The translations under genes were made by a program, and so were the position numbers. 64,000 nt of DNA from Brachionus manjavacas. Taxonomy: Eukaryota > Rotifera > Eurotatoria > Ploima > Brachionidae. Positions 1-41,071 of the stretch are shown piece after piece; the first letter of the stretch is position 1, and each line of letters begins with the position of its first letter. The notes beneath the pieces were generated by a model, which saw only the letters and a list, made by a program, of their open reading frames with translations, made no database searches and was not told the origin of the DNA. Location of the stretch: NCBI GenBank assembly GCA_019054805.1, contig JAHQIY010000023.1:558001-622000 (forward strand). The letters run 5' to 3'.

Positions 1-2224
1 CTCTGAAACATTCCTATACAATACTTGTTTTTGAGTATTCTTGTCCTTTTGTAGAAAACTTAGGTTCAATTAATTAAATATTTATCAAAAACTAACAAGT
101 AAAATTTTAATTTCCTCTTGTAAATCTTTTATTTTGATTTCGAGTTGCTACTTTTCTAAAGCAAACTTCATTTTCATTGCATTCAGCATGTTTTCAACTT
201 TAAATAAATTATCAGTGTTTTTAAAAGATGTATGCTGATTTATTGATATTTGTTCATTTAATTGCACGTAATTTGAATGGAGAATTGACTCGACGTAAGG
301 AAGGTCTTCTATTAGTTCAATTTTTGAAATATCAATGTAATTTATCTTTTCGTCTTCTGTAGATAGACTTGATATATTACTATCCTTTTTCACCGTGGAT
401 GAAATATCGCCGTTGTCTTTCACTAAGCTGGAAACTTCTTCAGCAAACTGTCAGTTAAAAATTTCACCGTCCTGCTCCACAGAATCTGAAATTTCACCAT
501 CTTCTTTCTCCGAGCTGATAACGTCTTCTTCATCTAACTCTGAGCATGAGATTTCACCGTCCTCCTCCACAGAATCTGAAATTTCACCATCTTCTTTCTC
601 CGATCTGATAACTTCTTCATCATCTAACTCTGAGCATGAGATTTCACTATCCTCCATCACGGAATCTGAAATTTAACCATCTTCTTTCTCCGAGCTGATA
701 ACTTCATCATCATCTAACTCTGAGCATGAGATTTCACTATCCTCCATCACGGAATCTGAAATTTCACCATCTTCTTTCTCCGATCTGATAACTTCTTCAT
801 CATCTAACTCTGAGCATGAGATTTCACTATCCTCCATCACGGAATCTGAAATTTAACCATCTTCTTTCTCCGAGCTGATAACGTCTTCTTCATCTAACTG
901 TGAGCATAAAATTTCACCGTCCTCCTCCACATAATCTGAAATTTCACCATCTTCTTTCTCCGATCTGATAACTTCTTCTTCATCTAACTCTGAGCATGAG
1001 ATTTCACCGTCCTCCTCCACAGAATCTGAAATTTAACCATCTTCTTTTTCCGAGCTGATTACGTCTTCTTCATCTAACTGTGAGCATAAAATTTCAACGT
1101 CCTCCTCCACATAATCTGAAATTTTACCATCTTATTTCTCCGAGCTGATAACGTCTTCTTCATCTAACTCTGAGCATGAGATTTCACCGTCCTCCTCCAC
1201 AGAATCTGAAATTTCACCATCTTCTTTCTCCGATCTGATAACTTCTTCATTATCTTACTATGAGCATGAGATTTCACTATCCTCCATCACGGAATCTGAA
1301 ATTTTACCATCTGTTTTCTCAGAGCTAAATTCATCTAAATTTGTGCTTAAATTACCATCATCTATTGTTTCAATCGTTTCGAAAAATTCTTTGCTTTTTC
1401 TAGTATTTTGTTCCGCTTCTTCTTTCATGTCTATATTTATTTCAAGATTTTGCATGTTCATTAAAGATTTTTCTTTAAATCTTTTATTTGAAAACCAATT
1501 CTGGACAAAAAATTTTTACATAATTAATGATATTTTTTTTTATAGTTTAATTAATTTATTAAATAATTAACTTACACGAATTTGTTGTTTTTGATATCGA
1601 CATTCCAAATAAAAAATTATATTATTTATATCTGAATGATTTGGTTTGTTTTTACGCTCATAATAAGTATTCAGATAAATCAAATCATTCTAATCAAAAA
1701 TGCTCTTTCTACCTCTCTTTTTTTTCTGAAAAAATAAAGTTGGTGAAAGAGGTGTTTCTGATTCGGAATTGGATTAAATAACTGTCCCTTTTCTTTTTCG
1801 TCCTGTTGTTGTTTGATGTTCTTTATCAAAAATTATTGAACATTTTAAAAAAAATTTAACAAAGAAAATCGTTACGAGATTGTTGATTTATTTCTGAACT
1901 TCCTTTAAAAGAATTCATTATCTTCTCTTTGATGCTCGCAAAGGCTTCTAAAGGGTTTTTATCAACATATTTCTAAAAAAATAATTAAATTTATAATTAT
2001 AATTTGAATAAAACAACCTTTAAACAATAGATCGAGTTATTAAAAAGATTTTTTGGGTAGTTTGCGAAAAATTTCTTTAAAACTTCTATGTATTGTTCCT
2101 GAATTTTTGAACTCACAATATTAAATTCACTTCTCGATTTCCTTACAAATGAATTTCCAGTAATTTTCTTGGCCAAACTAGCCAAGGTTTCGTTAGACTT
2201 AGACTTCCTGAATTTTCCGTTCAT
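1..2224 (-). pseudogene. Homeodomain / acidic-repeat / coiled-coil gene, left-arm copy (3' end outside window)
   Basis: Mirror of the gene at 38,106-41,071. The first exon starts with ATG at 2,222-2,224 (69 codons, MNGKFRKSK). The homeodomain lies at about 1,490-1,730, with the 46/47 intron at about 1,498-1,573. The acidic repeat follows, then the coiled-coil start at 148-423, and the window cuts the next exon. Shared defects: TAG in the first homeodomain helix (complement of CTA at 1,690-1,692), several TAA codons inside the repeat, TGA just after the repeat, and TAG before QLEIK. This copy has eight A residues before the homeodomain, which keeps the frame that the 38-kb copy loses with nine. 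Substitutions relative to the right arm include MNMQ for MNMH. Probably non-functional as written. Confidence 0.75.
463..1281 (-). repeat. 90-bp coding minisatellite, 9 units
   Basis: Exact 90-bp period, since the equivalent GAYRGTGAA marks at 463 and 1,273 are 810 bp apart. Each unit codes for 30 acidic residues of the type DSEISCSELDDEE + VIRSEKEDGEISDSVME. Several units carry TAA where others have GAA in the GEISD segment. The right-arm copies have 4 and 24 units. The opposite strand is also open and Ser-rich, which is a by-product of the period being divisible by three. Confidence 0.95.
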
Positions 2225-2459
2225 TTTTTCGTTGGTTTAGATATTTTAAAATCTAAATTTCAAGTTTTTAAATCAAAATTGACTATAAATTGAATTATAA
2301 AAAAAGTTGTTTATAAAGACAACAATATGGCAAGCAAAAAAAAAAAGAATTTTTAAATTTATTATTTTTCAAAATTATTATTATTTTTTAGAGTTTATTT
2401 GATCTTTAAAAATACATTTTTAAGAATGGTTTTATTTTATGAGTAAGCAATCAATAATT

Positions 2460-3317
2460 TCACATTGCTAGCATTCGTTTTTTTTTAAGCATTTTGAATG
2501 ATAAGAATGAATGCAATCAAAACCTAATAATTCTTGATCGGAATCTTTCTTACCACAGATACAACATAAATTCACTTTCCCTACATATTTCAAATTTTCT
2601 TTATATAATTCATCAAAAATCACTTTTCTAAATCGAAATGGGCATTTTTCTCGTATTTTTAGCTCTTTTTCTCTTACATCAACATTTAATAAGCTTTCGA
2701 AAAACATAAAAACAAAAACACCACAGCTTACTCCATCATTTTGCAAAGGATGTACAAATTTCCTTAAAATCTATTTTTTATCACATAAATCCTTCAGATA
2801 GGTGCAAAACAATCTAAAAATTTTCAAAGGATTATTATATATTGAAGAAAGCAAGCTATTTTCTATTACTTCCACTTTTCAAAATAGATATTATCATTCT
2901 CGGAACCTAATGAATCTAAGAACGAAAAACTTTGATTCTTCACATCAACAAAGAATAGACACCAATGATGACGGAGTGGATCATAAACCAAGCCAGCGAT
3001 CATTGAATACGAATTCAAATCCTTCAAAAATAATTAAAATTATATTTAAAAATTATGTTATTTATAAAAAATTTAAATTACTTCATCAAAAATATTCTCA
3101 CTCAAGAACATACCATTAAAAATTTTACTTGTCGAAAAATAATCAATAATTCTTATGTTAAATGTTTGGCCTTTAGTTTTGAAGTAATTAAAAATAATCC
3201 TAAAAAATAAAAATTTACAAATCAAATTTTAAAGCTAAAATTTTTTTAAAAAATATTTTTTACTTCGGCACTTAACAGGTCATTATTTAGAAGCTCATAA
3301 AAATTTTTGCAAGTCAT
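2460..3317 (-). pseudogene. Ulp1/C48-type cysteine protease, left-arm copy
   Basis: Mirror of 37,012-37,865. It shows the HHW motif, the LDSLG aspartate and LQNDGVSCGVF with the predicted Gln and Cys, followed by the CCICG...DCIHSYHSKC zinc-binding tail (2,468-2,746 holds the Gln/Cys box and tail in one open frame). The same TAG occurs upstream of the Gln/Cys box. The A run after the last Cys is longer than in the other copies, so the C-terminus shifts frame (ends KKNEC rather than KKRMLAM). FVFMFF here replaces FVCMFF. Confidence 0.7.
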
Positions 3318-5669
3318 TTTCGAAAAATTTGAATAAAAAAAGATGTGGTCCCGTAACAAATCGAAACTTCTGCTCTAAATTCGGAATTCTCAACATCAAT
3401 TAATGGTATTGAAAACAATTCTGATTTTCCACGAAACTGAGTTTTGAGGGAATCTTCCTGCTTTAATTTGTCAATCCCAAAAGTAAACTTGTTAGTAAAA
3501 TATATTCCTTTTTCTTTTGTTATTTTTTTTTCTTTTTTAAACTCCCATTTTTCTTCTTCATCGGAATTGTTGTGTCCATCTTTACTTTTAGAGAAATCTA
3601 TTCAATCATTTTCATAAAACTGTTTAAATTTCATCGAAAGATAGTTGTAATATGGAATTACAATTTCGCTTGGAAAAAGAAGAAGCTTAAATTTCAACCG
3701 TTTATTTATGTCTAGAATATTATTTCTGAATTATCCAAACCATGATTCTACAGGATTATTAGTCAATCGTGTTAGTTGAGATCTTTGAGGGAAATTGTCT
3801 TTATCTAACGAAATTAGAATTCCACTCCATAAAGGTACCAAATGGATCCTTTTTTCTTTTATTTTCATCAAAATTGGTTTGTAAAACTCATTTTTTTTAA
3901 TAATTTGATCCTTAGGCTCTTCTTTTATGCATTTTTTATAAAAACTCAGCCGTTGCTCAAAGAATTTTGTAAATGGTGAATCAAAAATATAATTTTTAGA
4001 CATATCATTTGGGAAATATAAATCTTCTATTCCAGATTCCTTTGAAGTTATCAAAAATTTTCGATCAAATTTTTTAAAAAGTTGATTCAGCCAGTCATAA
4101 TTCCTAATGCTAATCTTTATATTCATTCTAACTAGCGAACGAAGTAATAACTGAGATAAGTTAGGTTGACAAAAGATAGTTACCATATCTTCCAAAATCT
4201 GATTAAATTCATCAATCGATGAAGATTTTTGAAGCATTGTAAAGCAATAAATAAATGCTGCACGCATCTTATCGGTAATTTTTCCTATTGTTATATTAAT
4301 ATCATTAAGATCATCGATTATTATTTTTAAAAAATGAGTTGAACAAATATAGATTTTTGAATTTAAAATTTTCGAAAAGGAATAATCTTTCAAAACGGCA
4401 ATGTTGTAGCTTAATTTCAGATATTGAATAATATCACAGTTTAAAATGATCCTCAACAGTGCGTTTATATTTGCCCAGCTAAAATCTGTAACAATGATTT
4501 TAGGATAATAATCGGGTTTTAATTTCTTAAATGATGACGTAATTTTTAAAATGTTGATCGATATATTTGTTGTGTCGTTTTCAGTTGAAAAAAAATCTGC
4601 TATTGAAATCAATGATTTATTTATAGGATCATAACTTACAATTGAATATAGTAGTGGCTTTTTTTGATTGAAAATAGCAGGAATAAAAAGACCGGAAGCG
4701 TCAAAATCCCAAACTGGATTTCTCTTCTGAATGCTATCCCACATCCTTAATTGAATTTCGGAATAAATGTTCATGGAGAAAGGCGATATGGATATTTCTT
4801 GAATAAATCCTTTTATCCCTTTTTTACAACTGCTTCTAACTAGCAGGTCAAATGAAGATTTCGCTGCATCTGCATCCGATCTCACCTCATTGAATAATTT
4901 AAATCTATGTGTATGCTCGCTTGACATCTTCCTAATAACTGAATAATCGATCAGATTGTCAGTTTTGATATGATTTTGGGCTCTGAAGTTAGTAATCCCC
5001 ATCGATTTAATTTCTTGAGACATTAACTCTCTTTTTTCTCCAATAATTCTTTTGTTTTTAGGGTTTACTACACACACGATTTGTGATTTATTTTATATTT
5101 TTCCAAGTTGATAATTAGTTCGTCCATTTCGAAAGACGGAATATTAAGTTTGAAGGAGTTTTCACATGATATGCAGGAAAATATACCATTCCAACAATGT
5201 TTTTTTTCCTTCCATTTTCTTTCCTAAACCAGTTTGAACCATATTTTAGCCAACACAGAATACCAATAGCCTGAAATTTCAAAGATATAAATTCACAAAA
5301 TTCGGCATTGAATCGTTTTCGACTTTCCGTTTTACTTGTTTGAATAAATTTTTTCAACTTTTTTTTATCCTTTTCAGAAAAACGAATAATTTTCTGTTCC
5401 TATTCGAGTCTAATTTGTTTAAACTTGTTCATTACATTTGTTTTATACTTTTTGGTGTCTCTTTTCCACATTGTATGTAAAAACAGTGAATCTATTAGTA
5501 CATAAGTACCAAATATAAAAAGACAAAGCCTTCCCCATAATGTATTTTCACCACTATATGAGCCAACAAGTTCACATGGCGTATGAGCATTCTCAATCAA
5601 AAATTTAACTGATTTATCAACAATAACGTTTAAATCAATGTTTGATCGTCCTTTTCTATTTTGACTCAT
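3314..5669 (-). pseudogene. MULE (NOF-like) transposase, left-arm copy
   Basis: Best preserved transposase copy. The N-terminal segment is 5,400-5,669, a CxxC-bearing middle part lies at about 5,115-5,400, and the catalytic core is open over 448 codons at 3,731-5,077. Core motifs: FDASGLF (first Asp), IIVTDFSWANINALL (second Asp), YICSTHFLK (the C-x2-H of MULEs) and TNNPVESWFG near the end. Coding resemblance continues past the TAA after WFG and a TGA to a stop at 3,314-3,316. Unlike the right arm, this copy has Lys instead of a stop at NKFK, an in-frame A8 run in KDKKKLKK, and no break at MLQKSSSIDEF. One TAG (RLE*EQK) and a frame change before CVVNP remain. See the right-arm entry for family reasoning. 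Confidence 0.8.
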
Positions 5670-6127
5670 TATTTAGTTTAAATAATAATTTTTCTTAATA
5701 ATTATCTAAAATATCTAAAATTTTTTAAAAATATAAAATATTTTTAGAAATTTTTTTATGTAATGAAATGGAACTGTTTTAGAAAAGCAATCGTCAAAAT
5801 AGAATGGGGAATTGAATTTTAAAAATTGTGTGTATTTTCATTTTTTTAAATATAAAGTATAAAGTGTTATTACTTTATTGCTTTTATCGATTACAGAAAT
5901 TCATAAAATGTAGAGAGTATTTGTTTAAACTAATTTTTAATTTAAATAAAATTTATTTATTCTTTTAAAAATTTTATATTTTTATTTAAAATGATTTTTA
6001 AATTTTAAAAAAATTATTTCTTCCTTGTCGAGTGTCTAACAATTTTTTTCTGATTTTATCAAACTCTGCACTTAAATTGAAAAAAAACAAATTACGGTGT
6101 TTATGGTTTTTGTCTGTTCGTGTCCGG
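5670..6127. other. AT-rich spacer
   Basis: No coding signal on either strand. It has long A/T runs. Its inner end (about 6,090-6,127) begins a diverged sequence module that recurs near 10,755. Confidence 0.6.
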
Positions 6128-6273
6128 ACGTTCTCTCGTTTTCTTTGTTGCTGCCGGACTCTTTTTCTTTCTCTCCATATTTTCGTATCTTTCCAATTGA
6201 CAATAGCATACCAAAGGTGTGCGTTGGTCCGATTCGTCGAACATTTTCTCCAAGTCAAGTTTAACTCCTTCGA
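6128..6273 (-). pseudogene. Possible dynein heavy-chain C-terminal scrap, left-arm copy
   Basis: Mirror of 34,055-34,200. The frame reads LDLEKMFDESDQRTPLVC and then decays. That resembles the segment ahead of the conserved FLSMGSDPT stretch of axonemal dynein heavy chains, although the latter motif is only partly visible after a one-base shift. Tentative. Confidence 0.35.
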
Positions 6274-6329
6274 TAAATTATTCGCCAATCGAATCGCTAA
6301 CTTATTTCAGATCGAAAGATAAAGAATTT

Positions 6330-6735
6330 TATTTAGACGGATTCTTTGCCGATTGGAATTGAGGCTCAATCCTTCTTGACACATGATTAAGTTTTGAGAT
6401 ATTAAAAATCAAAAAAATTTTTTCAAAATATTTTAGATAAATAATGTAATTCATTATCATTTTTTTTAAATTTCTCTAAAAAATGTGAAAGAGGCCGAAA
6501 ATTTTATTAATTTTTTATCTACAGAATTTTTTTCCAATTCACAAAAAAATAAAATTTAAAAAAATCTTAATCTTTTGTCAGTGTAGTCCCGTTTAAAAAG
6601 CGATTTTTATGCTATTTTAGCAACTCATTTAATATGAACAATCAAGTAAAAATCATGATTATATTAAAATTTTTTTTCTTTAATAAAAAGCTTAATAACT
6701 ACATTTAATTTTGGTGTTTTGGTACCTTAAAGTAT
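6330..6735. other. AT-rich spacer
   Basis: Nothing recognisable; low-complexity A/T tracts only. Mirror is 33,590-34,000. Confidence 0.6.
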
Positions 6736-6737
6736 CA

Positions 6738-7656
6738 TTATATTATACTTGCTATGTTTTGTTGACTATACGCATCTGCCATTTGGAAGTTAACATTTAT
6801 CTTGGGTTTTATCTTAATGTTGGTCACTTGACTTGCTGGCTCAAGGTACAGCTCATTTGGAGCACGGCTACCGCAGTCTATCGGTGCATAAACAACACTC
6901 TGGTTTTGATTGTACATTTGCGGCATTTTGGTTTTAGCGTACGACGGGTTGCTATGCGAGTTGTCTGGCTTAAGATTAGGCATAGGTGGATAGGATGGTG
7001 AGTTGTTTTGTGGCGGATAGTGCTTGGTCGTCACAGTCACAGTGGTAGCATATGAATATGGCTCGCGAATGAGTGAATAGTTAAACGCCGTATTTGGTGG
7101 CTGCTGTGGGTTTTTGAATTCGTTGTACATGATTTGACTAGTTGGTGGCTTAGATTCTGGATCTTTTTTGGTCGATTTGGTCGTCTCCAGGTCGGGCTTG
7201 GCAAATTGTTTGCTTGATATGACTGCTGAGACGACTGCGATGTTCACAGACTGGTTCTTGGCAAATGTGCTGGATGTGGCGTAAGCAGAGAACTTTTTGG
7301 GTCCAGTCGTTCTTGAAGCTTTTTCCTGAGCGCTGTCGAGTTGTTCTCTGTGTTGGACATCTGGTTGAATACCTGATTGGACTCTTTGGACTGATCAGAG
7401 TGCAGTGAATGATTGTTTGACTGGTAGAATGCCTTTTGAATGTTGCAGTAGTATTGGCCTTCTGGGCTCGAATAGTGGCTTTGGTAGTTGGTCTCAGGAA
7501 CTTTCGATATTTCGTCGAGAACAAATTTGAGTCTACAACGCTCAAGTCAGGTTCGGTGAATGGAATTTCGAAGGCCGATGCTTGATTGTCGGCTATGAGC
7601 TGATTTGAGGGTTGAGGCGCGATTTTGAAGGACTCGATAAGGCCGGATTTGAGCAA
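6738..7656 (-). pseudogene. Pro/Asn/Gln-rich host-like gene fragment, left-arm copy
   Basis: Mirror of 32,666-33,584. Two overlapping frames (7,150-7,656 and 6,738-7,247) share a compositionally distinct, GC-richer stretch. The C-terminal 169 codons are identical to the right arm. In the N-terminal half a base change after VVDS shifts this arm into another frame (NLFSTKY), while the right arm reads KFVLDEISKVPETNYQ. Family not recognised. Confidence 0.5.
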
Positions 7657-7985
7657 AAGCCTCTATTCTATTTTGTTTTTCGCAAGTCATCATTCAATGT
7701 TTGTTTTTTATTTTGAGAATTTTCTGATTCTTTAAATTTTGAATTTTTGTTAAATTAATTTTTAGAAAAAAATATTCATAAAATTAAATGGTTTGGATTT
7801 TTTTCAATATATAATATATTTGATTGTTAACCAAATTTTCAAGAAAAGTTTTTGATATTATTTTAAAAAATTGAATTCATGTTTCTGATAAAAAATCTGC
7901 TATATTTTAAAATGATTTCTATTGTAAATAAAATATCTCCTTTTAAATGACTTTTTAAAAAAATAAAAATTATTTAAAAAAATGT

Positions 7986-8207
7986 TTACTTTGTCTTTTC
8001 TTGAAGAGATACTAGTTCAAACACTCTTGGTGCTCGAATTTTACGCTGCATTTGTGTAAACTGGATGGTGACCGATGAACTTTTTCCTTTAAATTAAAAA
8101 ATATTTTATATTTAGACCAAAATTACTGGTATTTACTGTTTTTTGTTAGGTATCTTTTTCAAATTAAAGAAAGGGTAATTATCTTCTTCTTCACAGGGTA
8201 ATTTCAT
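7986..8207 (-). CDS. Two-exon small gene candidate, left-arm copy
   Basis: Mirror of 32,130-32,351. ATG at 8,205-8,207 begins MKLPCEEEDNYPFFNLKK, a GTAAAT donor follows, and a second exon ends in RAPRVFELVSLQEKTK before TAA. The exon phases do not join cleanly, so this may be a fragment. Confidence 0.3.
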
Positions 8208-8364
8208 AAATTTTAATTTTTTGTTTGAACAAATTTGAGTGATAAATAAAATAATAAAATTTGATAAAATCTTTAATAATTTTATTTAAATAGGATAAAT
8301 TTAAATATAACTATTTAATAATAATAAGAAAAATAAAAAAATAAATCAAAACAAAAAAAAAAAA

Positions 8365-9612
8365 TCAGTATTTTTTAGATTTCTTTCCTAGTTTATCAAA
8401 AAAACCATCAGAAATTTCTAAGGCTTCATGCGTAGCTTTGGAAATATCAAATTTTTTCCCAAAATAAGCTCTTTTTTTCATCTTATGATATTTTTGATAG
8501 ACTTTCTTGCTATATTGTCTTACAGCTGTTTATATTTCACCCTACGCTTTTTATCTGGAGCCCATTGAATTTTGAGTTCTAGCTTGTTTCTGATACTATC
8601 AAACTTGTGGCCGATAACGTTTTCAACCTAGTAGAAAGTTTATTAATAAGAAATATTGAATGGAGTTAAATTTTAAAATTTTAAAAAAGTAACCTTGAAA
8701 GATGTATCCTCAATATTAGCACCAGTTAGATCCCTATAACTTTGAGCAAGATTTCGAAGAGTACCTTTTTTGTGTATATTTTTTTTTTTTGACAACTTTT
8801 TCTTTTTTGTCAAAGGAATCGAATTTCTTTTGCCATTATTATCACTTGAGTTTCCTTCGTGATTTGTCAATTCTTCTGAATTAATTGGCGTTTTTGATCC
8901 TTCTGAACCAATTGGCGTTTCTGATTCGGAAAGTTGTTCATTTATAATTTCTGACAAATTAATTCCAGCTGGAGCTTTTAATTTACAACTTGTTAATATT
9001 TTTTAAAAAATTTGATTTCAACCACTAATTAAAGGGACATCTCCTTATGGATTTTGAATTGTTTGACTTAATTCTCCAGGAGACTGGACTTGCAAATCAT
9101 TTTCTTTATTTTATAAGTTTATTTTTAGTTTTTAAATTTTTATTTTAAATTTTTTACTTAGAATTAATTTTTCGCTTTTTTTATCCCAGGTAATAAAGCA
9201 CTTATTTTTAAACCATTCCTCGAAAGATGGCTTTTCTATGGAACCTTCTAAGAAAATAGAAAAAAAAAATTATAATTTAAAAGTTAATTAAATTAAATCA
9301 TTACGCTGAAATCTCTGACGGATTTCTCTTGTTGACAATTTGTTTTGAAGATTGTTATTTGCAAATACTGAAGAGCAGACAACCAGGAATTTTTTATAAA
9401 ATTTTTTGATTTGACTTGGTTTCTTAACATAAAAGATTAGAAAATTTTTTTTTTAATTGAATAAATTAAAAATTCTTCCAGATTGAAAAATCTTTGTTTT
9501 ATAGCAGTTGAGTCAATTGATTCTACTTCTGTTGAATTAACTTAAAATGAATTGTTTAGTTAAAAAAAATTTTAAAATCTTTAAATTTACATGAAACTAT
9601 GCTTTCAGCCAT
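8365..9612 (-). pseudogene. Unrecognised six-exon gene, left-arm copy
   Basis: Exact mirror of 30,727-31,974: ATG at 9,610-9,612 and TGA at 8,365-8,367. It carries the same single TAA (NP*GDVPL) and the same out-of-frame A10 run in exon 2 as the right arm. One residue differs (KKRRV here, KKRRM there). The largest exon, 8,673-8,957 and slightly beyond, has Ser/Glu-rich then Lys-rich composition. See the right-arm entry for exon structure. Confidence 0.6.
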
Positions 9613-9619
9613 CTTTGTA

Positions 9620-12148: not shown

Positions 12149-12297
12149 GTAAACTTTATTTTTTTTCTATAAGTTTATCTGTATCGAGCTAATACCCCTT
12201 CAAATTAAAATAATATTGAAAAATTAAGATAAATAAAAGAAGGTTGAAAAATTCACTAGAAATTTAAAGAGAATATCAAGACTTAAAGATTTAAAGA

Positions 12298-17613: not shown

Positions 17614-17639
17614 AAAACAATTTACGTTAATTTACGTTA

Positions 17640-30726: not shown

Positions 30727-31974
30727 ATGGCTGAAAGCATAGTTTCATGTAAATTTAAAGATTTTAAAATTTTTTTAACTAAACAATTCATTTTAAGTTA
30801 ATTCAACAGAAGTAGAATCAATTGACTCAACTGCTATAAAACAAAGATTTTTCAATCTGGAAGAATTTTTAATTTATTCAATTAAAAAAAAAATTTTCTA
30901 ATCTTTTATGTTAAGAAACCAAGTCAAATCAAAAAATTTTATAAAAAATTCCTGGTTGTCTGCTCTTCAGTATTTGCAAATAACAATCTTCAAAACAAAT
31001 TGTCAACAAGAGAAATCCGTCAGAGATTTCAGCGTAATGATTTAATTTAATTAACTTTTAAATTATAATTTTTTTTTTCTATTTTCTTAGAAGGTTCCAT
31101 AGAAAAGCCATCTTTCGAGGAATGGTTTAAAAATAAGTGCTTTATTACCTGGGATAAAAAAAGCGAAAAATTAATTCTAAGTAAAAAATTTAAAATAAAA
31201 ATTTAAAAACTAAAAATAAACTTATAAAATAAAGAAAATGATTTGCAAGTCCAGTCTCCTGGAGAATTAAGTCAAACAATTCAAAATCCATAAGGAGATG
31301 TCCCTTTAATTAGTGGTTGAAATCAAATTTTTTTAAAAAATATTAACAAGTTGTAAATTAAAAGCTCCAGCTGGAATTAATTTGTCAGAAATTATAAATG
31401 AACAACTTTCCGAATCAGAAACGCCAATTGGTTCAGAAGGATCAAAAACGCCAATTAATTCAGAAGAATTGACAAATCACGAAGGAAACTCAAGTGATAA
31501 TAATGGCAAAAGAAATTCGATTCCTTTGACAAAAAAGAAAAAGTTGTCAAAAAAAAAAAATATACACAAAAAAGGTACTCTTCGAAATCTTGCTCAAAGT
31601 TATAGGGATCTAACTGGTGCTAATATTGAGGATACATCTTTCAAGGTTACTTTTTTAAAATTTTAAAATTTAACTCCATTCAATATTTCTTATTAATAAA
31701 CTTTCTACTAGGTTGAAAACGTTATCGGCCACAAGTTTGATAGTATCAGAAACAAGCTAGAACTCAAAATTCAATGGGCTCCAGATAAAAAGCGTAGGAT
31801 GAAATATAAACAGCTGTAAGACAATATAGCAAGAAAGTCTATCAAAAATATCATAAGATGAAAAAAAGAGCTTATTTTGGGAAAAAATTTGATATTTCCA
31901 AAGCTACGCATGAAGCCTTAGAAATTTCTGATGGTTTTTTTGATAAACTAGGAAAGAAATCTAAAAAATACTGA
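30727..31974 (+). pseudogene. Unrecognised six-exon gene, right arm
   Basis: Exons 30,727-30,748 (MAESIVS), 30,798-31,033, 31,091-31,180 (GSIEKPSFEEWFKNKCFITW), 31,235-31,315 (NDLQVQSPGELSQTIQNP), 31,365-31,645 (APAGINLSEIINEQLSESE, then a Lys-rich patch, then LRNLAQSYRDLTGANIEDT) and 31,712-31,974 (VENVIGHKFDSIRNKLELKI to KKSKKY, TGA). All five junctions have GT-AG ends and match in phase, which strongly supports a genuine ancestral gene. Defects: an A10 run in exon 2 is one base short of keeping the frame, TAA in NP*GDVPL, and a one-base slip (or a 14-bp GTAAG...TATAG micro-intron) at 31,816-31,829. It is a basic, probably nuclear, protein of about 350 residues with no family recognised. 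It could be a transposon accessory gene. Confidence 0.6.
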
Positions 31975-32129
31975 TTTTTTTTTTGTTTTGATTTATTTTT
32001 TTATTTTTCTTATTATTATTAAATAGTTATATTTAAATTTATCCTATTTAAATAAAATAATTAAAGATTTTATCAAATTTTATTATTTTATTTATCACTC
32101 AAATTTGTTCAAACAAAAAATTAAAATTT

Positions 32130-32351
32130 ATGAAATTACCCTGTGAAGAAGAAGATAATTACCCTTTCTTTAATTTGAAAAAGATACCTAACAAAAAACA
32201 GTAAATACCAGTAATTTTGGTCTAAATATAAAATATTTTTTAATTTAAAGGAAAAAGTTCATCGGTCACCATCCAGTTTACACAAATGCAGCGTAAAATT
32301 CGAGCACCAAGAGTGTTTGAACTAGTATCTCTTCAAGAAAAGACAAAGTAA
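32130..32351 (+). CDS. Two-exon small gene candidate, right arm
   Basis: Exon 1 (32,130-32,200) starts with ATG and reads MKLPCEEEDNYPFFNLKK. Exon 2 begins at 32,251 after TTTAAAG. Splicing these sites gives a short end (FIGHHPVYTNAA), whereas a longer open frame in exon 2 (VTIQFTQMQRKIRAPRVF ... QEKTK) would need another junction. Function unknown. Confidence 0.3.
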
Positions 32352-32665
32352 ACATTTTTTTAAATAATTTTTATTTTTTTAAAAAGTCATTTAAAAGGAG
32401 ATATTTTATTTACAATAGAAATCTTTTTAAAATATAGCAGATTTTTTATCAGAAACATGAATTCAATTTTTTAAAATAATATCAAAAACTTTTCTTGAAA
32501 ATTTGGTTAACAATCAAATATATTATATATTGAAAAAAATCCAAACCATTTAATTTTATAAATATTAATTTAACAAAAATTCAAAATTTAAAGAATCAGA
32601 AAATTCTCAAAATAAAAAACAAACATTGAATGATGACTTGCAAAAACAAAATAGAATAGAGGCTT

Positions 32666-33584
32666 TTGCTCAAATCCGGCCTTATCGAGTCCTTCAAAAT
32701 CGCGCCTCAACCCTCAAATCAGCTCATAGCCGACAATCAAGCATCGGCCTTCGAAATTCCATTCACCGAACCTGACTTGAGCGTTGTAGACTCAAAATTT
32801 GTTCTCGACGAAATATCGAAAGTTCCTGAGACCAACTACCAAAGCCACTATTCGAGCCCAGAAGGCCAATACTACTGCAACATTCAAAAGGCATTCTCCA
32901 GTCATACAATCATTCACTGCACTCTGATCAGTCCAAAGAGTCCAATCAGGTATTCAACCAGATGTCCAACACAGAGAACAACTCGACAGCGCTCAGGAAA
33001 AAGCTTCAAGAACGACTGGACCCAAAAAGTTCTCTGCTTACGCCACATCCAGCACATTTGCCAAGAACCAGTCTGTGAACATCGCAGTCGTCTCAGCAGT
33101 CATATCAAGCAAACAATTTGCCAAGCCCGACCTGGAGACGACCAAATCGACCAAAAAAGATCCAGAATCTAAGCCACCAACTAGTCAAATCATGTACAAC
33201 GAATTCAAAAACCCACAGCAGCCACCAAATACGGCGTTTAACTATTCACTCATTCGCGAGCCATATTCATATGCTACCACTGTGACTGTGACGACCAAGC
33301 ACTATCCGCCACAAAACAACTCACCATCCTATCCACCTATGCCTAATCTTAAGCCAGACAACTCGCATAGCAACCCGTCGTACGCTAAAACCAAAATGCC
33401 GCAAATGTACAATCAAAACCAGAGTGTTGTTTATGCACCGATAGACTGCGGTAGCCGTGCTCCAAATGAGCTGTACCTTGAGCCAGCAAGTCAAGTGACC
33501 AACATTAAGATAAAACCCAAGATAAATGTTAACTTCCAAATGGCAGATGCGTATAGTCAACAAAACATAGCAAGTATAATATAA
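32666..33584 (+). pseudogene. Pro/Asn/Gln-rich host-like gene fragment, right arm
   Basis: Reads LKSGLIESFKIAPQPSNQL ... FTEPDLSVVDSKFVLDEIS + KVPETNYQ, then after frame slips LRKKLQERLDPKKFSAYATS and an intact 169-codon tail (33,075-33,584) with MYNEFKNPQQPPNTAF, PSYPPMPNLKPDNS and MYNQNQSVVYAPIDCGS, ending IASII before TAA. Composition suggests a disordered tail of a host protein. Base composition is GC-richer than the adjacent DNA, as in the dynein fragment. Not recognised; likely captured or decayed. Confidence 0.5.
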
Positions 33585-33589
33585 TGATA

Positions 33590-34054
33590 CTTTAAGGTAC
33601 CAAAACACCAAAATTAAATGTAGTTATTAAGCTTTTTATTAAAGAAAAAAAATTTTAATATAATCATGATTTTTACTTGATTGTTCATATTAAATGAGTT
33701 GCTAAAATAGCATAAAAATCGCTTTTTAAACGGGACTACACTGACAAAAGATTAAGATTTTTTTTAAATTTTATTTTTTTTTGTGAATTGGAAAAAAAAT
33801 TCTGTAGATAAAAAATTAATAAAATTTTCGGCCTCTTTCACATTTTTTAGAGAAATTTAAAAAAAAATGATAATGAATTACATTATTTATCTAACATATT
33901 TTGAAAAAATTTTTTTTGATTTTTAATATCTCAAAACTTAATCATGTGTCAAGAAGGATTGAGCCTCAATTCCAATCGGCAAAGAATCCGTCTAAATAAA
34001 ATTCTTTATCTTTCGATCTGAAATAAGTTAGCGATTCGATTGGCGAATAATTTA
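33590..34054. other. AT-rich spacer
   Basis: No gene; mirror of 6,330-6,735 plus flank. Confidence 0.5.
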
Positions 34055-34200
34055 TCGAAGGAGTTAAACTTGACTTGGAGAAAATGTTCGACGAATCGGA
34101 CCAACGCACACCTTTGGTATGCTATTGTCAATTGGAAAGATACGAAAATATGGAGAGAAAGAAAAAAGAGTCCGGCAGCAACAAAGAAAACGAGAGAACG
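34055..34200 (+). pseudogene. Possible dynein heavy-chain C-terminal scrap, right arm
   Basis: The frame LDLEKMFDESDQRTPLVC resembles the sequence before the FLSMGSDPT region near AAA5/AAA6 of axonemal dyneins. One base later the other frame gives LSIG, as if the gene slipped. The downstream sequence merges into a module shared with 29.29 kb, so the match is short and uncertain. It is same-strand and collinear with the other dynein pieces. Confidence 0.35.
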
Positions 34201-34663
34201 TCCGGACACGAACAGACAAAAACCATAAACACCGTAATTTGTTTTTTTTCAATTTAAGTGCAGAGTTTGATAAAATCAGAAAAAAATTGTTAGACACTCG
34301 ACAAGGAAGAAATAATTTTTTTTTAAAATTTAAAAATCATTTTAAATAAAAATATAAAATTTTTAAAAGAATAAATAAATTTTATTTAAATTAAAAATTA
34401 GTTTAAACAAATACTCTCTACATTTTATGAATTTCTGTAATCGATAAAAGCAATAAAGTAATAACACTTTATACTTTATATTTAAAAAAAAATGAAAATA
34501 CACACAATTTTTAAAATTCAATTCCCCATTCTATTTTGACGATTGCTTTTCTAAAACAGTTCCATTTCATTACATAAAAAAATTTCTAAAAATATTTTAT
34601 ATTTTTAAAAAATTTTAGATATTTTAGATAATTATTAAGAAAAATTATTATTTAAACTAAATA
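34201..34663. other. Shared module then AT-rich spacer
   Basis: About 34,183-34,240 carries the AAGAAAACGAGAGAACGTC module. The remainder precedes the transposase ATG and contains no recognised promoter element. Confidence 0.45.
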
Positions 34664-37015
34664 ATGAGTCAAAATAGAAAAGGACGATCAAACATTGATT
34701 TAAACGTTATTGTTGATAAATCAGTTAAATTTTTGATTGAGAATGCTCATACGCCATGTGAACTTGTTGGCTCATATAGTGGTGAAAATACATTATGGGG
34801 AAGGCTTTGTCTTTTTATATTTGGTGCTTATGTACTAATAGATTCACTGTTTTTACATACAATGTGGAAAAGAGACACCAAAAAGTATAAAACAAATGTA
34901 ATGAACAAGTTTTAACAAATTAGACTCGAATAGGAACAGAAAATTATTCGTTTTTCTGAAAAGGATAAAAAAAGTTGAAAAAATTTATTCAAACAAGTAA
35001 AACGGAAAGTCGAAAACGATTCAATGCCGAATTTTGTGAATTTATATCTTTGAAATTTCAGGCTATTGCTATTCTGTGTTGGCTAAAATATGGTTCAAAC
35101 TGGTTTAGGAAAGAAAATGGAAGGAAAAAAACATTGTTGGAATGGTATATTTTCCTGCATATCATGTGAAAACTCCTTCAAACTTAATATTCCGTCTTTC
35201 GAAATGGACGAACTAATTATCAACTTGGAAAAATATAAAATAAATCACAAATCGTGTGTGTAGTAAACCCTAAAAACAAAAGAATTATTGGAGAAAAAGA
35301 GAGTTAATGTCTCAAGAAATTAAATCGATGGGGATTACTAACTTCAGAGCCCAAAATCATATCAAAACTGACAATCTGATCGATTATTCAGTTATTAGGA
35401 AGATGTCAAGCGAGCATACACATAGATTTAAATTATTCAATGAGGTGAGATCGGATGCAGATGCAGCGAAATCTTCATTTGACCTGCTTGTTAGAAGCAG
35501 TTGTAAAAAAGGGATAAAAGGATTTATTCAAGAAATATCCATATCGCCTTTCTCCATGAACATTTATTCGGAAATTCAATTAAGGATGTGGGATAGCATT
35601 CAGAAGAGAAATCCAGTTTGGGATTTTGACGCTTCCGGTCTTTTTATTCCTGCTATTTTCAATCAAAAAAAGCCACTACTATATTCAATTGTAAGTTATG
35701 ATCCTATAAATAAATCATTGATTTCAATAGCAGATTTTTTTTCAACTGAAAACGACACAACAAATATATCGATCAACCTTTTAAAAATTACGTCATCATT
35801 TAAGAAATTAAAACCCGATTATTATCCTAAAATCATTGTTACAGATTTTAGCTGGGCAAATATAAACGCACTGTTGAGGATCATTTTAAACTGTGATATT
35901 ATTCAATATCTGAAATTAAGCTACAACATTGCCGTTTTGAAAGATTATTCCTTTTCGAAAATTTTAAATTCAAAAATCTATATTTGTTCAACTCATTTTT
36001 TAAAAATAATAATCGATGATCTTAATGATATTAATATAACAATAGGAAAAATTACCGATAAGATGCGTGCAGCATTTATTTATTGCTTTACAATGCTTCA
36101 AAATCTTCATCGATTGATGAATTTAATCAGATTTTGGAAGATATGGTAACTATCTTTTGTCAACCTAACTTATCTCAGTTATTACTTCGTTCGCTAGTTA
36201 GAATGAATATAAAGATTAGCATTAGGAATTATGACTGGCTGAATCAACTTTTTAAAAAATTTGATCGAAAATTTTTGATAACTTCAAAGGAATCTGGAAT
36301 AGAAGATTTATATTTCCCAAATGATATGTCTAAAAATTATATTTTTGATTCACCATTTACAAAATTCTTTGAGCAACGGCTGAGTTTTTATAAAAAATGC
36401 ATAAAAGAAGAGCCTAAGGATCAAATTATTAAAAAAAATGAGTTTTACAAACCAATTTTGATGAAAATAAAAGAAAAAAGGATCCATTTGGTACCTTTAT
36501 GGAGTGGAATTCTAATTTCGTTAGATAAAGACAATTTCCCTCAAAGATCTCAACTAACACGATTGACTAATAATCCTGTAGAATCATGGTTTGGATAATT
36601 CAGAAATAATATTCTAGACATAAATAAACGGTTGAAATTTAAGCTTCTTCTTTTTCCAAGCGAAATTGTAATTCCATATTACAACTATCTTTCGATGAAA
36701 TTTAAACAGTTTTATGAAAATGATTGAATAGATTTCTCTAAAAGTAAAGATGGACACAACAATTCCGATGAAGAAGAAAAATGGGAGTTTAAAAAAGAAA
36801 AAAAAATAACAAAAGAAAAAGGAATATATTTTACTAACAAGTTTACTTTTGGGATTGACAAATTAAAGCAGGAAGATTCCCTCAAAACTCAGTTTCGTGG
36901 AAAATCAGAATTGTTTTCAATACCATTAATTGATGTTGAGAATTCCGAATTTAGAGCAGAAGTTTCGATTTGTTACGGGACCACATCTTTTTTTATTCAA
37001 ATTATTCGAAAATGA
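34664..37015 (+). pseudogene. MULE (NOF-like) transposase, right arm
   Basis: Mutator-like transposases cut and paste DNA with a DDE nuclease fold. Order: N-terminal segment MSQNRKGRSNIDLNVIVDKS (34,664-34,915); a zinc-finger-like part with CWNGIFSCISCENSF and a later Cys at about 35,128-35,257 in a shifted frame; the catalytic core from 35,307 with FDASGLFIPAIF, IIVTDFSWANINALL, YICSTHFLK (MULE C-x2-H) and TNNPVESWFG; then a C-terminal segment readable past TAA (36,596) and TGA (36,725) to 37,015. The core motifs match the animal NOF-type MULE group (the FB-NOF transposase family). Breaks: TAA at 34,913 (right arm only), TAG at 34,931 (both arms), a shortened A run at about 34,970 and one lost A at about 36,100. 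The final TGA overlaps the ATG of the protease gene. Confidence 0.8.
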
Positions 37016-37865
37016 CTTGCAAACATGTTTATGAGCTTCTAAATAATGACCTGTTAAGTGCCGAAGTAAAAAATATTTTTTAAAAAAATTTTAGCTTTAA
37101 AATTTGATTTGTAAATTTTTATTTTTTAGGATTATTTTTAATTACTTCAAAACTAAAGGCCAAACATTTAACATAAGAATTATTGATTATTTTTCGACAA
37201 GTAAAATTTTTAATGGTATGTTCTTGAGTGAGAATATTTTTGATGAAGTAATTTAAATTTTTTATAAATAACATAATTTTTAAATATAATTTTAATTATT
37301 TTTGAAGGATTTGAATTCGTATTCAATGATCGCTGGCTTGGTTTATGATCCACTCCGTCATCATTGGTGTCTATTCTTTGTTGATGTGAAGAATCAAAGT
37401 TTTTCGTTCTTAGATTCATTAGGTTCCGAGAATGATAATATCTATTTTGAAAAGTGGAAGTAATAGAAAATAGCTTGCTTTCTTCAATATATAATAATCC
37501 TTTGAAAATTTTTAGATTGTTTTGCACCTATCTGAAGGATTTATGTGATAAAAAATAGATTTTAAGGAAATTTGTACATCCTTTGCAAAATGATGGAGTA
37601 AGCTGTGGTGTTTTTGTTTGTATGTTTTTCGAAAGCTTATTAAATGTTGATGTAAGAGAAAAAGAGCTAAAAATACGAGAAAAATGCCCATTTCGATTTA
37701 GAAAAGTGATTTTTGATGAATTATATAAAAAAATTTGAAATATGTAGGGAAAGTGAATTTATGTTGTATCTGTGGTAAGAAAGATTCCGATCAAGAATTA
37801 TTAGGTTTTGATTGCATTCATTCTTATCATTCAAAATGCTTAAAAAAACGAATGCTAGCAATGTG
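37012..37865 (+). pseudogene. Ulp1/C48-type cysteine protease with zinc-binding tail, right arm
   Basis: Ulp1-family peptidases cleave SUMO-like tails and are recurrent partners of large MULE-like transposons. Exons are 37,012-37,065, 37,130-37,247, 37,308-37,459 and 37,516-37,865. Motifs: RHHWCLFFVDVKNQSFSFLD gives the catalytic His and Asp, and FVHPLQNDGVSCGVFVCMFF gives the oxyanion Gln and catalytic Cys. The last intron joins in phase. The C-terminus CCICGKKDSDQELL then DCIHSYHSKC resembles the first half of a RING-H2 finger and stops at LAM. Defects: the first intron joins out of phase by one base; TAG at 37,556-37,558 between DKK and ILRKF; and a lost base at about 37,728 disrupting YKENLKY in this copy. 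Confidence 0.75.
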
Positions 37866-38105
37866 AAATTATTGATTGCTTACTCATAAAATAAAACCAT
37901 TCTTAAAAATGTATTTTTAAAGATCAAATAAACTCTAAAAAATAATAATAATTTTGAAAAATAATAAATTTAAAAATTCTTTTTTTTTTTTTGCTTGCCA
38001 TATTGTTGTCTTTATAAACAACTTTTTTTTTATAATTCAATTTATAGTCAATTTTGATTTAAAAACTTGAAATTTAGATTTTAAAATATCTAAACCAACG
38101 AAAAA

Positions 38106-41071
38106 ATGAACGGAAAATTCAGGAAGTCTAAGTCTAACGAAACCTTGGCTAGTTTGGCCAAGAAAATTACTGGAAATTCATTTGTAAGGAAATCGAGAAG
38201 TGAATTTAATATTGTGAGTTCAAAAATTCAGGAACAATACATAGAAGTTTTAAAGAAATTTTTCGCAAACTACCCAAAAAATCTTTTTAATAACTCGATC
38301 TATTGTTTAAAGGTTGTTTTATTCAAATTATAATTATAAATTTAATTATTTTTTTTAGAAATATGTTGATAAAAACCCTTTAGAAGCCTTTGCGAGCATC
38401 AAAGAGAAGATAATGAATTCTTTTAAAGGAAGTTCAGAAATAAATCAACAATCTCGTAACGATTTTCTTTGTTAAATTTTTTTTTAAAATGTTCAATAAT
38501 TTTTGATAAAGAACATCAAACAACAACAGGACGAAAAAGAAAAGGGACAGTTATTTAATCCAATTCCGAATCAGAAACACCTCTTTCACCAACTTTATTT
38601 TTTCAGAAAAAAAAAGAGAGGTAGAAAGAGCATTTTTGATTAGAATGATTTGATTTATCTGAATACTTATTATGAGCGTAAAAACAAACCAAATCATTCA
38701 GATATAAATAATATAATTTTTTATTTGGAATGTCGATATCAAAAACAACAAATTCGTGTAAGTTAATTATTTAATAAATTAATTAAACTGTAAAAAAAAA
38801 TATCATTAATTATGTAAAAATTTTTTGTCCAGAATTGGTTTTCAAATAAAAGATTTAAAGAAAAATCTTTAATGAACATGCACAATCTTGAAATAAATAT
38901 AGACATGAAAGAAGAAGCGGAACAAAATACTAGAAAAAGCAAAGAATTTTTCGAAACGATTGAAACAATAGATGATGGTAATTTAAGCACAAATTTAGAT
39001 GAATTTAGCTCTGAGAAAACAGATGGTAAAATTTCAGATTCCGTGATGGAGGATAGTGAAATCTAATGCTCATAGTTAGATGAAGAAGACGTTATCAGCT
39101 CGGAGAAAGAAGATGGCGAAATTTCAGATTCTGTGGAGGAGGACGGTGAAATTTTATGCTCACAGTTAGATGAAGAAGACGTTATCAGCTCGGAAAAAGA
39201 AGATGGTTAAATTTCAGATTCTGTGGAGGAGGACGGTGAAATCTCATGCTCACAGTTAGATGAAGAAGACGTTATCAGCTCGGAGAAAGAAGATGGTTAA
39301 ATTTCAGATTCCGTGATGGAGGATAGTGAAATCTCATGCTCAGAGTTAGATGATGAAGAAGTTATCAGATCGGAGAAAGAAGATGGTGAAATTTCAGATT
39401 CTGTGGAGCAGGACGGTGAAATTTTTAACTGACAGTTTGCTGAAGAAGTTTCCAGCTTAGTGAAAGACAACGGCGATATTTCATCCATGGTGAAAAAGGA
39501 TAGTAATATATCAAGTCTATCTACAGAAGACGAAAAGATAAATTACATTGATATTTCAAAAATTGAACTAATAGAAGACCTTCCTTACGTCGAGTCAATT
39601 CTCCATTCAAATTACGTGCAATTAAATGAACAAATATCAATAAATCAGCATACATCTTTTAAAAACACTGATAATTTATTTAAAGTTGAAAACATGCTGA
39701 ATGCAATGAAAATGAAGTTTGCTTTAGAAAAGTAGCAACTCGAAATCAAAATAAAAGATTTACAAGAGGAAATTAAAATTTTACTTGTTAGTTTTTGATA
39801 AATATTTAATTAATTGAACCTAAGTTTTCTACAAAAGGACAAGAATACTCAAAAACAAGTATTGTATAGGAATGTTTCAGAGGATTATGAAAAAGTTGTA
39901 ATAGAACAGGAGTTATCAGAGCAAGAAACCTCAAATATTAAAAGACAACCTGAGATAAGCATAATTAGATTCAAAAATTTAGAAGATGATCATGAGGACC
40001 TAAAGAAGACAAATGCAGATATTCAAAAGAAAATTCACTATTGCAGTCCACAATAAAGTATAATTCTTCGTTAATTGCTGAATTAAAAGATTCGTTATCA
40101 AAAGGTAAAATTAAAGTTTGTGAAAACTAATTTTTTAAATTAAATTTCTAGAATCAGAACAATTTACAGAAATTCATATCAAAAAAGAAAATTTATCTAT
40201 AAACAATAAAAATGAACAAGGTATATTTTTAGAAAAATATTTTTATTCACTTTTGTTTGTTCATTTAATTTTTTCAAAGAAAAATCCGATTTGAGGGAAC
40301 GACTAAATGAAGCAATAAAAAAATAATGAAAAACTAAAAAATTCAAATGAAACTGAGCTTAAGAAGACAGTTGAAGAATTCGAATCAAGTAATTAAGACA
40401 AAGCATCTTTACTTAGCATTTCAAAAATTTTAATGATAATTTTAAAAGTAATTTCTTGCAATCAGGAAAATTTTTCAAAAAATGTAGAAAAATTAAAAAG
40501 CGAATTTGAGGAAAATATGGTTATCCTAAATTCTGAATTTGAAATTAAAAATGACAACCATAACAAAATGCAGTCATCAAGCGATTCAGAAATACTGAAA
40601 CTAAGAAAGCAGATTTCTGATCTCAAATCAGTGAATAAAACTCTAAAACAAAATTTTTCGTCATATAAATCAACAAGTAAAACAATTTAACTTCATTCTT
40701 TAATTCAATTTTAAATAAATCTTTAAATATAAATTAAGTTGTGAAAGAAAACAATGAAAAACTAAAAGCAAAAGATAAGCGTCTAAAAGAATTAGAGCAA
40801 AAAATGCAAGAAAATAAAAGTATGACGTCGAATTTCGAATCGGACCAGAAAGCCAGTTTTGAAAAATTACGAACGTCAAAAGATCAGGGTATAATCACAT
40901 TTCGATGAATAATTGTTGAAATATTTATTTATTTTTTAAAATTTTTATTTTTAAGAGATCAAGCATAAAGATGATTTGCAACAGGTTCATAACTTGTGTC
41001 AAAGAAGTCAAATTGATTACCTATATTTTATTCGAAAGCCTATTAATCTTGAGCTTAATTTATTAAGTTAA
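38106..41071 (+). pseudogene. Homeodomain / acidic-repeat / coiled-coil gene, right-arm copy 1
   Basis: Ten exons, junctions in phase: 38,106-38,312; 38,359-38,455; 38,512-38,757; 38,833-39,786; 39,838-40,104; 40,152-40,220; 40,280-40,388; 40,450-40,676; 40,739-40,888; 40,956-41,071. The homeodomain runs from KKKRGRKSIFD (with TAG, 38,641-38,643) through NDLIYLNTYYERKNKPNHSD and CRYQKQQIR, then over an intron at the classic 46/47 site to NWFSNKRFKEKS (Trp48, Phe49, Asn51, Arg53). Then come four 30-residue acidic repeats, VKKDSNISSLSTEDEK, and long heptad coiled coils. A sequence-specific DNA-binding role with self-association is inferred. Breaks: nine rather than eight A before the homeodomain, TAA after GTVI, repeat TAAs, TGA after the repeat, TAG before QLEIK, and a one-base slip at about 40,325. 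The last exon runs into satellite and stops at 41,069-41,071. Confidence 0.78.
39052..39420 (+). repeat. 90-bp coding minisatellite, 4 units
   Basis: Marks at 39,052 and 39,412 are 360 bp apart. The first unit has TCA to TAA and GAG to TAG changes (ATC TAA TGC TCA TAG) seen also in the first unit of the 43.7-kb array, so they share an origin. Confidence 0.95.

Follow-up and report, generated by a model that had tools for sequence, protein, structure and literature searches.

Long palindromes in genome assemblies have been suspected both as assembly errors and as self-repairing structures, and a stretch of the Brachionus manjavacas assembly (114 Mb in 61 contigs) raised the question of which of the two it represents. 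The window analysed was the whole 64,000-nucleotide stretch of contig C23, with a GC content of 26%; coordinates are window positions and negative numbers lie to the left of the window. In this AT-rich region, about 58 kb were near-identical on both strands around a block of short repeats. Judging from its sequence, this palindrome is probably a real segmental duplication in inverted orientation that arose recently in a region rich in satellite.

BLAST comparison of the window with itself gave an identity of 99.1% between 10131-29963 and its reverse complement and one of 98.7% between 885-10715 and 39448-29623. Together with a MAFFT alignment of the left arm (1327-19961) and the reverse complement of the right arm (20104-39006), this confirmed the palindrome with a satellite centre described in the original prediction. 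The innermost base pair of the arms was 19961 with 20104, which left an unpaired satellite spacer of exactly the 142 bp predicted (19962-20103) with an orientation switch at 20085/20086. The limits of 1 and 39,883 were wrong, as the mirror similarity ran from -6617, to the left of the window, to 51157 (58 kb) and a weaker similarity within satellite faded out at about -13.6 and 64.7 kb. The earlier end at 39,883 arose because the right arm holds an extra tandem copy, its distal part being tandemly doubled so that 42173-48668 is similar to 37480-42176 (both on the - strand). The left arm (+ strand) occupied 1-19961 of the window and reached about -6.6 kb, with weak similarity out to -13.6 kb, and the right arm (- strand) covered 20104-51157, with weak satellite mirror similarity just beyond the window to about 64.7 kb. 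Each arm was at least 18.6 kb long, or about 27 and 31 kb once the flanks were counted.

The palindrome centre and both flanks were built from a satellite with a monomer of 134-135 bp. The left flank was mostly in - orientation and the right flank mostly in +, while the centre (17720-22364) consisted of alternating blocks (+ - + -, then again + - + -). The right flanking satellite (47476-64000, mostly +) contained - blocks at 49978-50246 and 50449-51563, with + satellite starting at 51564 and reaching 84 kb or further. Sub-arrays facing opposite ways across several to tens of kb, a feature used to recognise macro-dyads of the Tribolium type, were therefore present. The monomer itself was weakly dyad-symmetric, with a self-complementarity of 61%, while 1000 mononucleotide shuffles gave no more than 57%. 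Switching of orientation at the dyad axis of the monomer was considered and rejected, as switches were not seen there and the central switch was off axis too. No conserved sequence was found at the inversion sites of this region, where switch phases were 55/60, 26/71, 75/103, 101/72, 35/40 and others (the sites of this region alone, apart from those on C2). Since the central switch was off axis and the phases varied, a single sequence hotspot for switching was unsupported.

The two arms differed by 27 substitutions and 49 indels in the MAFFT alignment. The indels comprised 42 homopolymer length changes, four other changes of 1 bp and one change each of 14 bp, 18 bp and 248 bp; residual assembly errors are present, given that 42 of the 49 were homopolymer changes. 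The 18-bp difference (19115/20968) was the arm-specific marker closest to the centre, followed by one at 14469/25622. Arm-to-arm divergence was 0.14% (26/18,017 with BLAST, 23/17,991 with MAFFT). Transversions outnumbered transitions (21 to 6) among the substitutions, and differences between the arm and its paralogues were likewise transversion-rich (transitions to transversions 59:165 for C34 and 63:164 for C29), so the substitutions look like mutation and not base-calling. All 25 substitutions with an outgroup polarised cleanly, 14 as derived in the left arm and 11 in the right, and the other two of the 27 had no outgroup. The predicted amino-acid substitutions NIL/NLL, FGTY/FGAY and QAIG/QAIA were all recovered when the two arms were translated (at 4552, 5507 and 5263, respectively).

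Larger differences were also found. The 248-bp tandem repeat had 2.1 units in the left arm (10131-10658, +) and 3.1 in the right (29436-30211, -), and the 90-bp repeat had 9.6 units in the left arm (461-1326, +) and 4.6 in the right (39007-39422, -), in agreement with the differences of one 248-bp unit and five 90-bp units reported before. A further 24.6 units of the 90-bp repeat (43702-45911, -) lay in the additional tandem copy within the right arm. A FLYWCH-MULE insertion of 1,821 bp with a 9-bp target duplication was located at -2385 to -565, in the part of the left arm outside the window, and was confined to that arm, its empty site being intact in both right-arm copies; four further copies of the element elsewhere matched at 99% over 85-100% of the length of the query. 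In addition, the only C23 matches of a 1.46-kb segment of the left flank were the two members of the tandem pair to which it belongs, on the + strand in both cases, and it was not found on the right, so that mirrored flanks beyond the arms were not found among the candidates scored (40 of 51). The notion that the arms are identical save for read errors failed on the polarised substitutions, the unit-size indels and the one-arm MULE insertion. The proposal of two real sequences was in turn supported by the 25 substitutions (of 27) that polarised cleanly, the one-arm transposon with its target duplication and the unequal flanks.

The arms were a mosaic of transposons and satellite, and most of the arm sequence recurred elsewhere in the genome. 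A repeat-family open frame of 453 aa (3731-5092, -) had a right-arm counterpart (35274-36598, +) divided into two frames by a 1-bp homopolymer difference, and the C34 copy held a longer overlapping frame of 560 aa, cut at the end of the fetched piece. Neither the 453-aa frame nor the overlapping C34 frame had a Pfam match. A MULE origin of the 453-aa frame was considered and rejected; besides the missing Pfam match, the PDB match was weak (E 0.15) and the single-sequence structure model (pLDDT 33.5) was unusable. The stretch 2468-2770 (-) is the terminal part of an Ulp1-like (Peptidase_C48) frame that carries a RING-like tail; its match (E 0.055) fell short of the curated cut-off, and so did that of the Ulp1-like frame in the C34 copy (E 0.00076, 19.8 bits vs cut-off 20.7). 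A dynein heavy chain fragment (16294-17203, -) contained a DHC_N2 match in 16294-16728 (E 2.8e-8, 33.5 bits vs cut-off 31.9), resembled C2:1109-1113k at 88-91% and had a right-arm copy of the frame 16294-16728 at 23361-23795 (+). No Rfam match at gathering scores was found within the window, and no intact multicopy gene family was recognised among the arm frames examined.

An assembly artefact, either a fold-back read (missed-adapter, amplification or chimeric) or an inverted join of two haplotypes or two repeat copies at the satellite, is unlikely. The centre does fall in satellite, where assemblers fail, homopolymer differences predominate between the arms, and C19 has another long palindrome which starts at contig base 1. 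In the available text of the reports concerned, palindromes in rotifer assemblies are doubted and none was found in the A. ricciae assembly (PMC5916493), artificial palindromes can stem from erroneous scaffolding (PMC7953838) and false palindromic fragments are numerous in amplified DNA (PMC6218980). However, read fold-back would leave errors alone between the arms, whereas 25 private, polarised substitutions were observed along with arrays that differ by whole units and a mobile element that sits, flanked by its target duplication, in a single arm. Had two alleles been joined, the flanks should mirror each other, but on C23 the 1.46-kb left-flank segment (with 40 of 51 candidates scored) recurs solely in its + strand tandem pair, and satellite makes up the right flank between 51.6 kb and at least 84 kb. 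The contig also extends hundreds of kb past the palindrome on either side. FB/NOF elements and long-TIR MULEs are fold-back element families with long terminal inverted repeats, and the arms could likewise be the very long terminal inverted repeats of one giant mobile element. This origin is highly improbable, although transposon-like frames and tandem subrepeats occur in the arms and the C19 palindrome is flanked, in matching relative orientation, by a related outer segment. Only this outer part is common to the C19 palindrome and the present one. The copies other than C19 had a single orientation where aligned (short self-inverted repeats aside), among them C34, C29 and C23:692k, and these three together with the C19 copy run past the outer limit of the arm. 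The 850 bases of C34 after its last match differed from the central satellite, which was not found there. An inverted pair on C2 (98.4% over 4.5 kb) was dissimilar between the inner stretches tested, so that C2 was rejected as the site of another large palindrome of this kind, and the same inverted structure with target duplications was not found at C34, C29, C23:692k, C2 or C19. The 453-aa frame, with no Pfam match and its model of pLDDT 33.5, also spoke against such an element. A fold-back transposon was disfavoured by the copies that are one-oriented where aligned and continue past the outer end of the arm.

A third reading is that the locus is a (peri)centromere of macro-dyad design, in which satellite arrays of opposite orientation surround an inverted core and serve chromosome segregation. 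This reading concerns function and is compatible with an inverted duplication. Among the 200 matches listed out of 712, satellite loci were confined to C2 (at 9.12-9.36 Mb) and C23 (at 0.47-0.63 Mb), each with arrays in both orientations, and precedents exist in Tribolium (PMC13081366) and Candida tropicalis (PMC4741521), as far as the available text of both reports goes. Against this, the matches listed place the satellite on only 2 of the 61 contigs, the inverted arms are mosaics of transposons and the core does not consist of unique sequence, which leaves a centromeric role with a small chance.

For the inverted duplication that we prefer, recent duplication or arm-to-arm conversion, as originally proposed, was supported by the divergence of 0.14% between the arms compared to 1.6-3.4% between the arm and six other family copies (C34, C29, C12, C23:692k, C19 and C28). 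A broken or stalled end may have folded back via inverted satellite stretches, as the weakly dyad-symmetric monomer and the frequent orientation switches suggest. The folded-back end would then have copied the arm and been joined up again on the far side by way of the same satellite. Afterwards, each arm would have gained substitutions of its own, arrays would have changed and one transposon would have inserted, and, more tentatively, the inner half may have been refreshed by conversion, perhaps with a bias to the centre. In the cell, the palindrome would at most shape the chromatin of this satellite region.

Gene conversion as such is only suggested. The inner half was short of substitutions (2/21 vs 38% expected; allowing for paralogue divergence weakened the raw P of 6e-6 to P = 0.004), and the innermost 9 kb had only two. 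Heterogeneity of the mutation rate was partly true as the cause, since paralogue divergence had an inner/outer ratio of 0.60. Fisher's test of arm substitutions against paralogue differences, inner versus outer, was not significant (P = 0.39), and a two-sample test of substitution against indel positions was marginal (P = 0.08). The 109 changes common to both arms, whose direction was set partly using young copies, included 21 weak-to-strong and 41 strong-to-weak changes; with no GC bias, an independent mark of conversion is missing. The quiet innermost 9 kb could also come from consensus polishing of ambiguous reads.

Several known systems resemble the locus in part, as judged from the available text of the reports cited. 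Satellite macro-dyads are described as documented in Tribolium only, and features that mark the type there also include a position in the putative (peri)centromeres of all chromosomes and presence in raw long reads (PMC13081366, 2026). The present locus is similar in its opposite satellite arrays, tens-of-kb mirrors and dyad symmetry in repeat and sub-array, but the near-identical arms are mostly transposon-derived DNA, the switch sites are not of one type and the satellite was on two contigs among the matches listed. As with the ampliconic palindromes of ape sex chromosomes, the arms were longer than 8 kb, at least 98% identical (by BLAST and MAFFT) and separated by a spacer, and were closer to each other than to paralogues (PMC11168930). 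The ape criterion also includes a repetitive content under 80%. Unlike in the ape palindromes, most of the arm recurs elsewhere, no intact multicopy gene family was found in the frames examined and GC did not rise in the arm-common changes. In yeast, inverted repeats, even when spaced and diverged, can fold back as single strands to give inverted duplications that are stabilised later by secondary rearrangement (PMC7467729, PMC10164571), while the product here is interstitial and known from an assembly, the event itself not having been observed. Centromeres of C. tropicalis also have a core between inverted arms that are closest to each other, but that core is 2-5 kb of non-repetitive DNA, in contrast to satellite with a 142-bp spacer here (PMC4741521). 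The satellite-rich elements of Brachionus asplanchnoidis share long satellite tracts, in a genome whose main peak is near 25% GC (26% in the present window), but have main monomers of 154 and 143 bp and of raised GC, compared to 134-135 bp here, and the word 'inverted' does not occur in the available part of that account (PMC8447722).

A more far-reaching proposal is that dyad-symmetric satellite, at the level of the monomer, of alternating sub-arrays and of tens-of-kb arrays, organises a pericentromere-like region outside Tribolium and drives inverted duplication of a captured transposon mosaic, with hairpin-nucleated conversion keeping the arms alike from the centre outward; this is speculative and rather doubtful. 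The arm-specific markers found here let ordinary long reads separate an error from a self-repairing structure. If real, the palindrome would extend satellite macro-dyads beyond Tribolium, the sole genus in which they are documented according to the available text of PMC13081366, and would tie the switching of satellite orientation to a large inverted duplication of non-satellite DNA. The locus is a place to study how mirror structures originate and how their likeness is maintained.

Self-comparison of the window showed that 10131-29963 paired with its own reverse complement at 99.1% identity and that 885-10715 paired in inverted orientation with 39448-29623 at 98.7%, which confirmed the palindrome of the original prediction together with its unpaired spacer of 142 bp, the innermost paired bases being 19961 and 20104. 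The predicted limits of 1-39883 were too small. With the mirror search widened by 30 kb of left flank (zero and negative positions) and 20 kb of right flank, mirror pairs were found at -568 to 1326 with 46940 to 45046 (97.4%) and at -6617 to -2386 with 51157 to 46928 (96.1%), mirror order was kept in the satellite by common 40-mers (e.g. -7646 to -8296 with 52303 to 52953), and a gapped colinear chain extended to -13581/64650, its outermost three pieces showing 90.6-91.4% identity. In addition, the right arm carried an extra tandem copy (37480-39422 against 42173-44111, 97.7%; 39007-42176 against 45496-48668, 98.7%). In the left flank, a 229-aa open frame without a Pfam match (4262-4948 of the fetched piece L010) belonged to a 3.3-kb segment present twice in tandem at approximately -20.3 to -13.7 kb (94% identity); these segments contained dispersed repeats.

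When the 134-135-bp satellite monomer was compared with its reverse complement, identity in the best circular register was 61%; none of 1000 mononucleotide shuffles exceeded 57%. A two-strand profile path showed that the central satellite consisted of blocks of alternating orientation with switches at 18066, 18638, 19544, 20086, 20522, 21443 and 22018, and the phase of the switches varied between sites. The satellite was mostly minus in the left flank and mostly plus in the right flank, where one plus segment ran from 51564 to 84000. A 28-base satellite pattern with ≤2 mismatches gave 334 forward and 378 reverse matches across the assembly (114,169,980 bases, 61 contigs); among the matches listed (200 of 712), all were on contigs C2 or C23, the latter carrying the window at 558001-622000, with both orientations in arrays on each.

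The arms were a mosaic, one part of which was a repeat-family stretch with a Ulp1-like end; no Pfam match was found for the 453-aa frame of this family. A 2.7-kb repeat of the arms was also present on C2 and C10 (97%). A dynein heavy chain fragment was identified (DHC_N2, E 2.8e-8), for which 11 of 14 PDB sequences matched were named dynein and the top match was labelled CFAP57. C2:1109-1113k matched the dynein-bearing part at 88-91% and could be the gene from which the fragment derives. At C28:772911-783886, sequence matching the arm at about 17.36-17.55 kb was present as three tandem copies at 5.4-kb intervals, and a hairpin-forming inverted repeat at 17500-17615, seen by eye, adjoined the junction of the dynein-bearing stretch and the central satellite. 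The 90-bp array (461-1326, 43702-45911) ranged from 4.6 to 24.6 units across three copies here, with long stretches open on both strands, one of which could be read as an acidic 30-residue repeat.

Once 20121-39006 had been reverse-complemented and aligned to 1327-19970, 27 substitutions were counted, of which 6 were transitions and 21 transversions. There were also 49 indels, and 42 of these were in homopolymers by our own criterion. The three predicted amino-acid differences were among the substitution sites, at 4552, 5263 and 5507. With other genomic copies of the arm sequence as outgroup, 25 of the 27 substitutions were polarised, the left state being ancestral in 11 and the right in 14; no site was split among copies and two had no outgroup. 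Transitions to transversions were 59:165 and 63:164 between the arm and its paralogues on C34 and C29, therefore the arm substitutions share the spectrum of the longer-term changes of the lineage. The transversion excess was less marked between some other copies (49:59 for C34/C29, 27:25 for a C2 pair), but C54/C58 had 5:13. Over 1327-17600 against the fetched paralogues, transitions made up 26-28% for the arm lineage against C34 and against C29, 45-52% for C34/C29, C30/C58 and the C2 pair and 28% for C54/C58, and the spectra of private changes showed no significant difference (P = 0.20). Elsewhere, C2:9141591-9226453 held two tandem copies 7.2 kb apart, and also an inverted copy (98.4%). The tandem copies had no substitutions but 14 gap bases over 4.5 kb, gaps that point to length errors left in this assembly or to lengths that changed very recently.

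The left arm alone contained a 1,821-bp insert at -2385 to -565 (lengths counted by hand) with the 9-bp direct repeat TTTAAAATT on both sides, while the insertion site was intact in both right-arm copies. The insert encoded a MULE transposase domain (E 3.4e-13, over the cut-off) and a FLYWCH domain (E 4.4e-4, below the cut-off), and its termini were imperfect inverted repeats approximately 140 bp long. A 1,791-bp query, nearly the whole insert, found four other copies on C28, C1, C4 and C10 with 99% identity over 85-100% of its length. The element was therefore inserted once the arms were already separate sequences. A fold-back read cannot account for this one-arm transposon, the arm-specific substitutions or the whole-unit array differences. 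Two haplotypes joined in inverted orientation would predict mirrored flanks, but the only C23 matches of a 1.46-kb left-flank segment were two on the plus strand, 538982-540444 and 542300-543760 (40 of 51 candidates scored). An assembly error at the satellite may have joined two real copies that are nearly identical.

Arm divergence was 26/18,017 sites (0.14%) by BLAST and 23/17,991 by MAFFT, both omitting the 248-bp array. Either arm differed by 1.6-3.4% from the copies on C34, C29, C12, C23:692k, C19 and C28, and all of these except C28 differed from one another by 0.2-0.8% over shared stretches. Judged by sequence divergence, the other arm is therefore by far the closest relative of each arm within the fetched set. 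When older copies served as outgroup, private changes were in excess in the arm lineage against C34 (67:38, P = 0.006), C29 (64:42, P = 0.04), C12 (36:18, P = 0.02) and C19 (21:7, P = 0.013), these being non-independent tests with a branch in common; no significant excess was found against C23:692k (14:9, P = 0.40), and C28 had no usable sites. The C34 and C29 copies skipped from arm 10.5-10.7 to 15.4 kb, and the family copy continued past the outer end of the arm in C34, C29, C23:692k and C19.

By position, 25 substitutions were at or before 10983 and two after it, compared to a 29:17 division of the 46 short indels (Fisher P = 0.006; two-sample Kolmogorov-Smirnov P = 0.08). The cut point of the inner/outer comparisons was picked with the data already in view. 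Without 10131-10983, 19 substitutions were outer and two inner. Paralogue divergence was also lower inside (50/3,436 against 206/8,430), therefore the expected inner share was 38%, and two or fewer of 21 had P = 0.004. The longest tract without substitution was 5,502 bp (P = 0.002, uncorrected for paralogue divergence). However, a plain Fisher test of arm substitutions against paralogue differences was not significant (P = 0.39), and no GC bias was found in 109 changes common to both arms (21 weak-to-strong, 41 strong-to-weak), whose direction was set partly with young copies. The data thus suggest gene conversion in the inner half but fall short of showing it.

One satellite, whose orientation switched often, occupied the middle of the palindrome as well as its outer limit on either side. 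According to excerpts of two yeast studies, single-stranded fold-back through inverted repeats, even spaced or diverged, leads to rearrangements and inverted duplications (PMC10164571, PMC7467729). The orientation-switching satellite would supply annealing partners at each junction, from which single-strand fold-back could produce an inverted duplication.

A second long palindrome was found at the very start of C19 (1-21692 with 51707-30001, 99.8%), with 25001-30000 being N. It had repeated 5.4-5.5-kb units with Helitron frames (Helitron_like_N, E 3.1e-27), was bounded by a 429-bp tandem array, and its outer part belonged to the repeat family of the outer arm of the window.

The closest known parallel is found in Tribolium satellites, in a macro-dyad arrangement which in excerpts of its description spans tens of kb, was checked on raw reads and is stated as documented in Tribolium only (PMC13081366). 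Judged from these excerpts, both systems have opposite satellite arrays and nested dyads, whereas here the arms are built of transposons and the switch type is not single. Titles and abstract openings on rotifer or Brachionus palindromes and inverted satellite arrays did not describe the present structure. Within the literature searched, at that level, this transposon-armed variant of the known macro-dyad arrangement is new.
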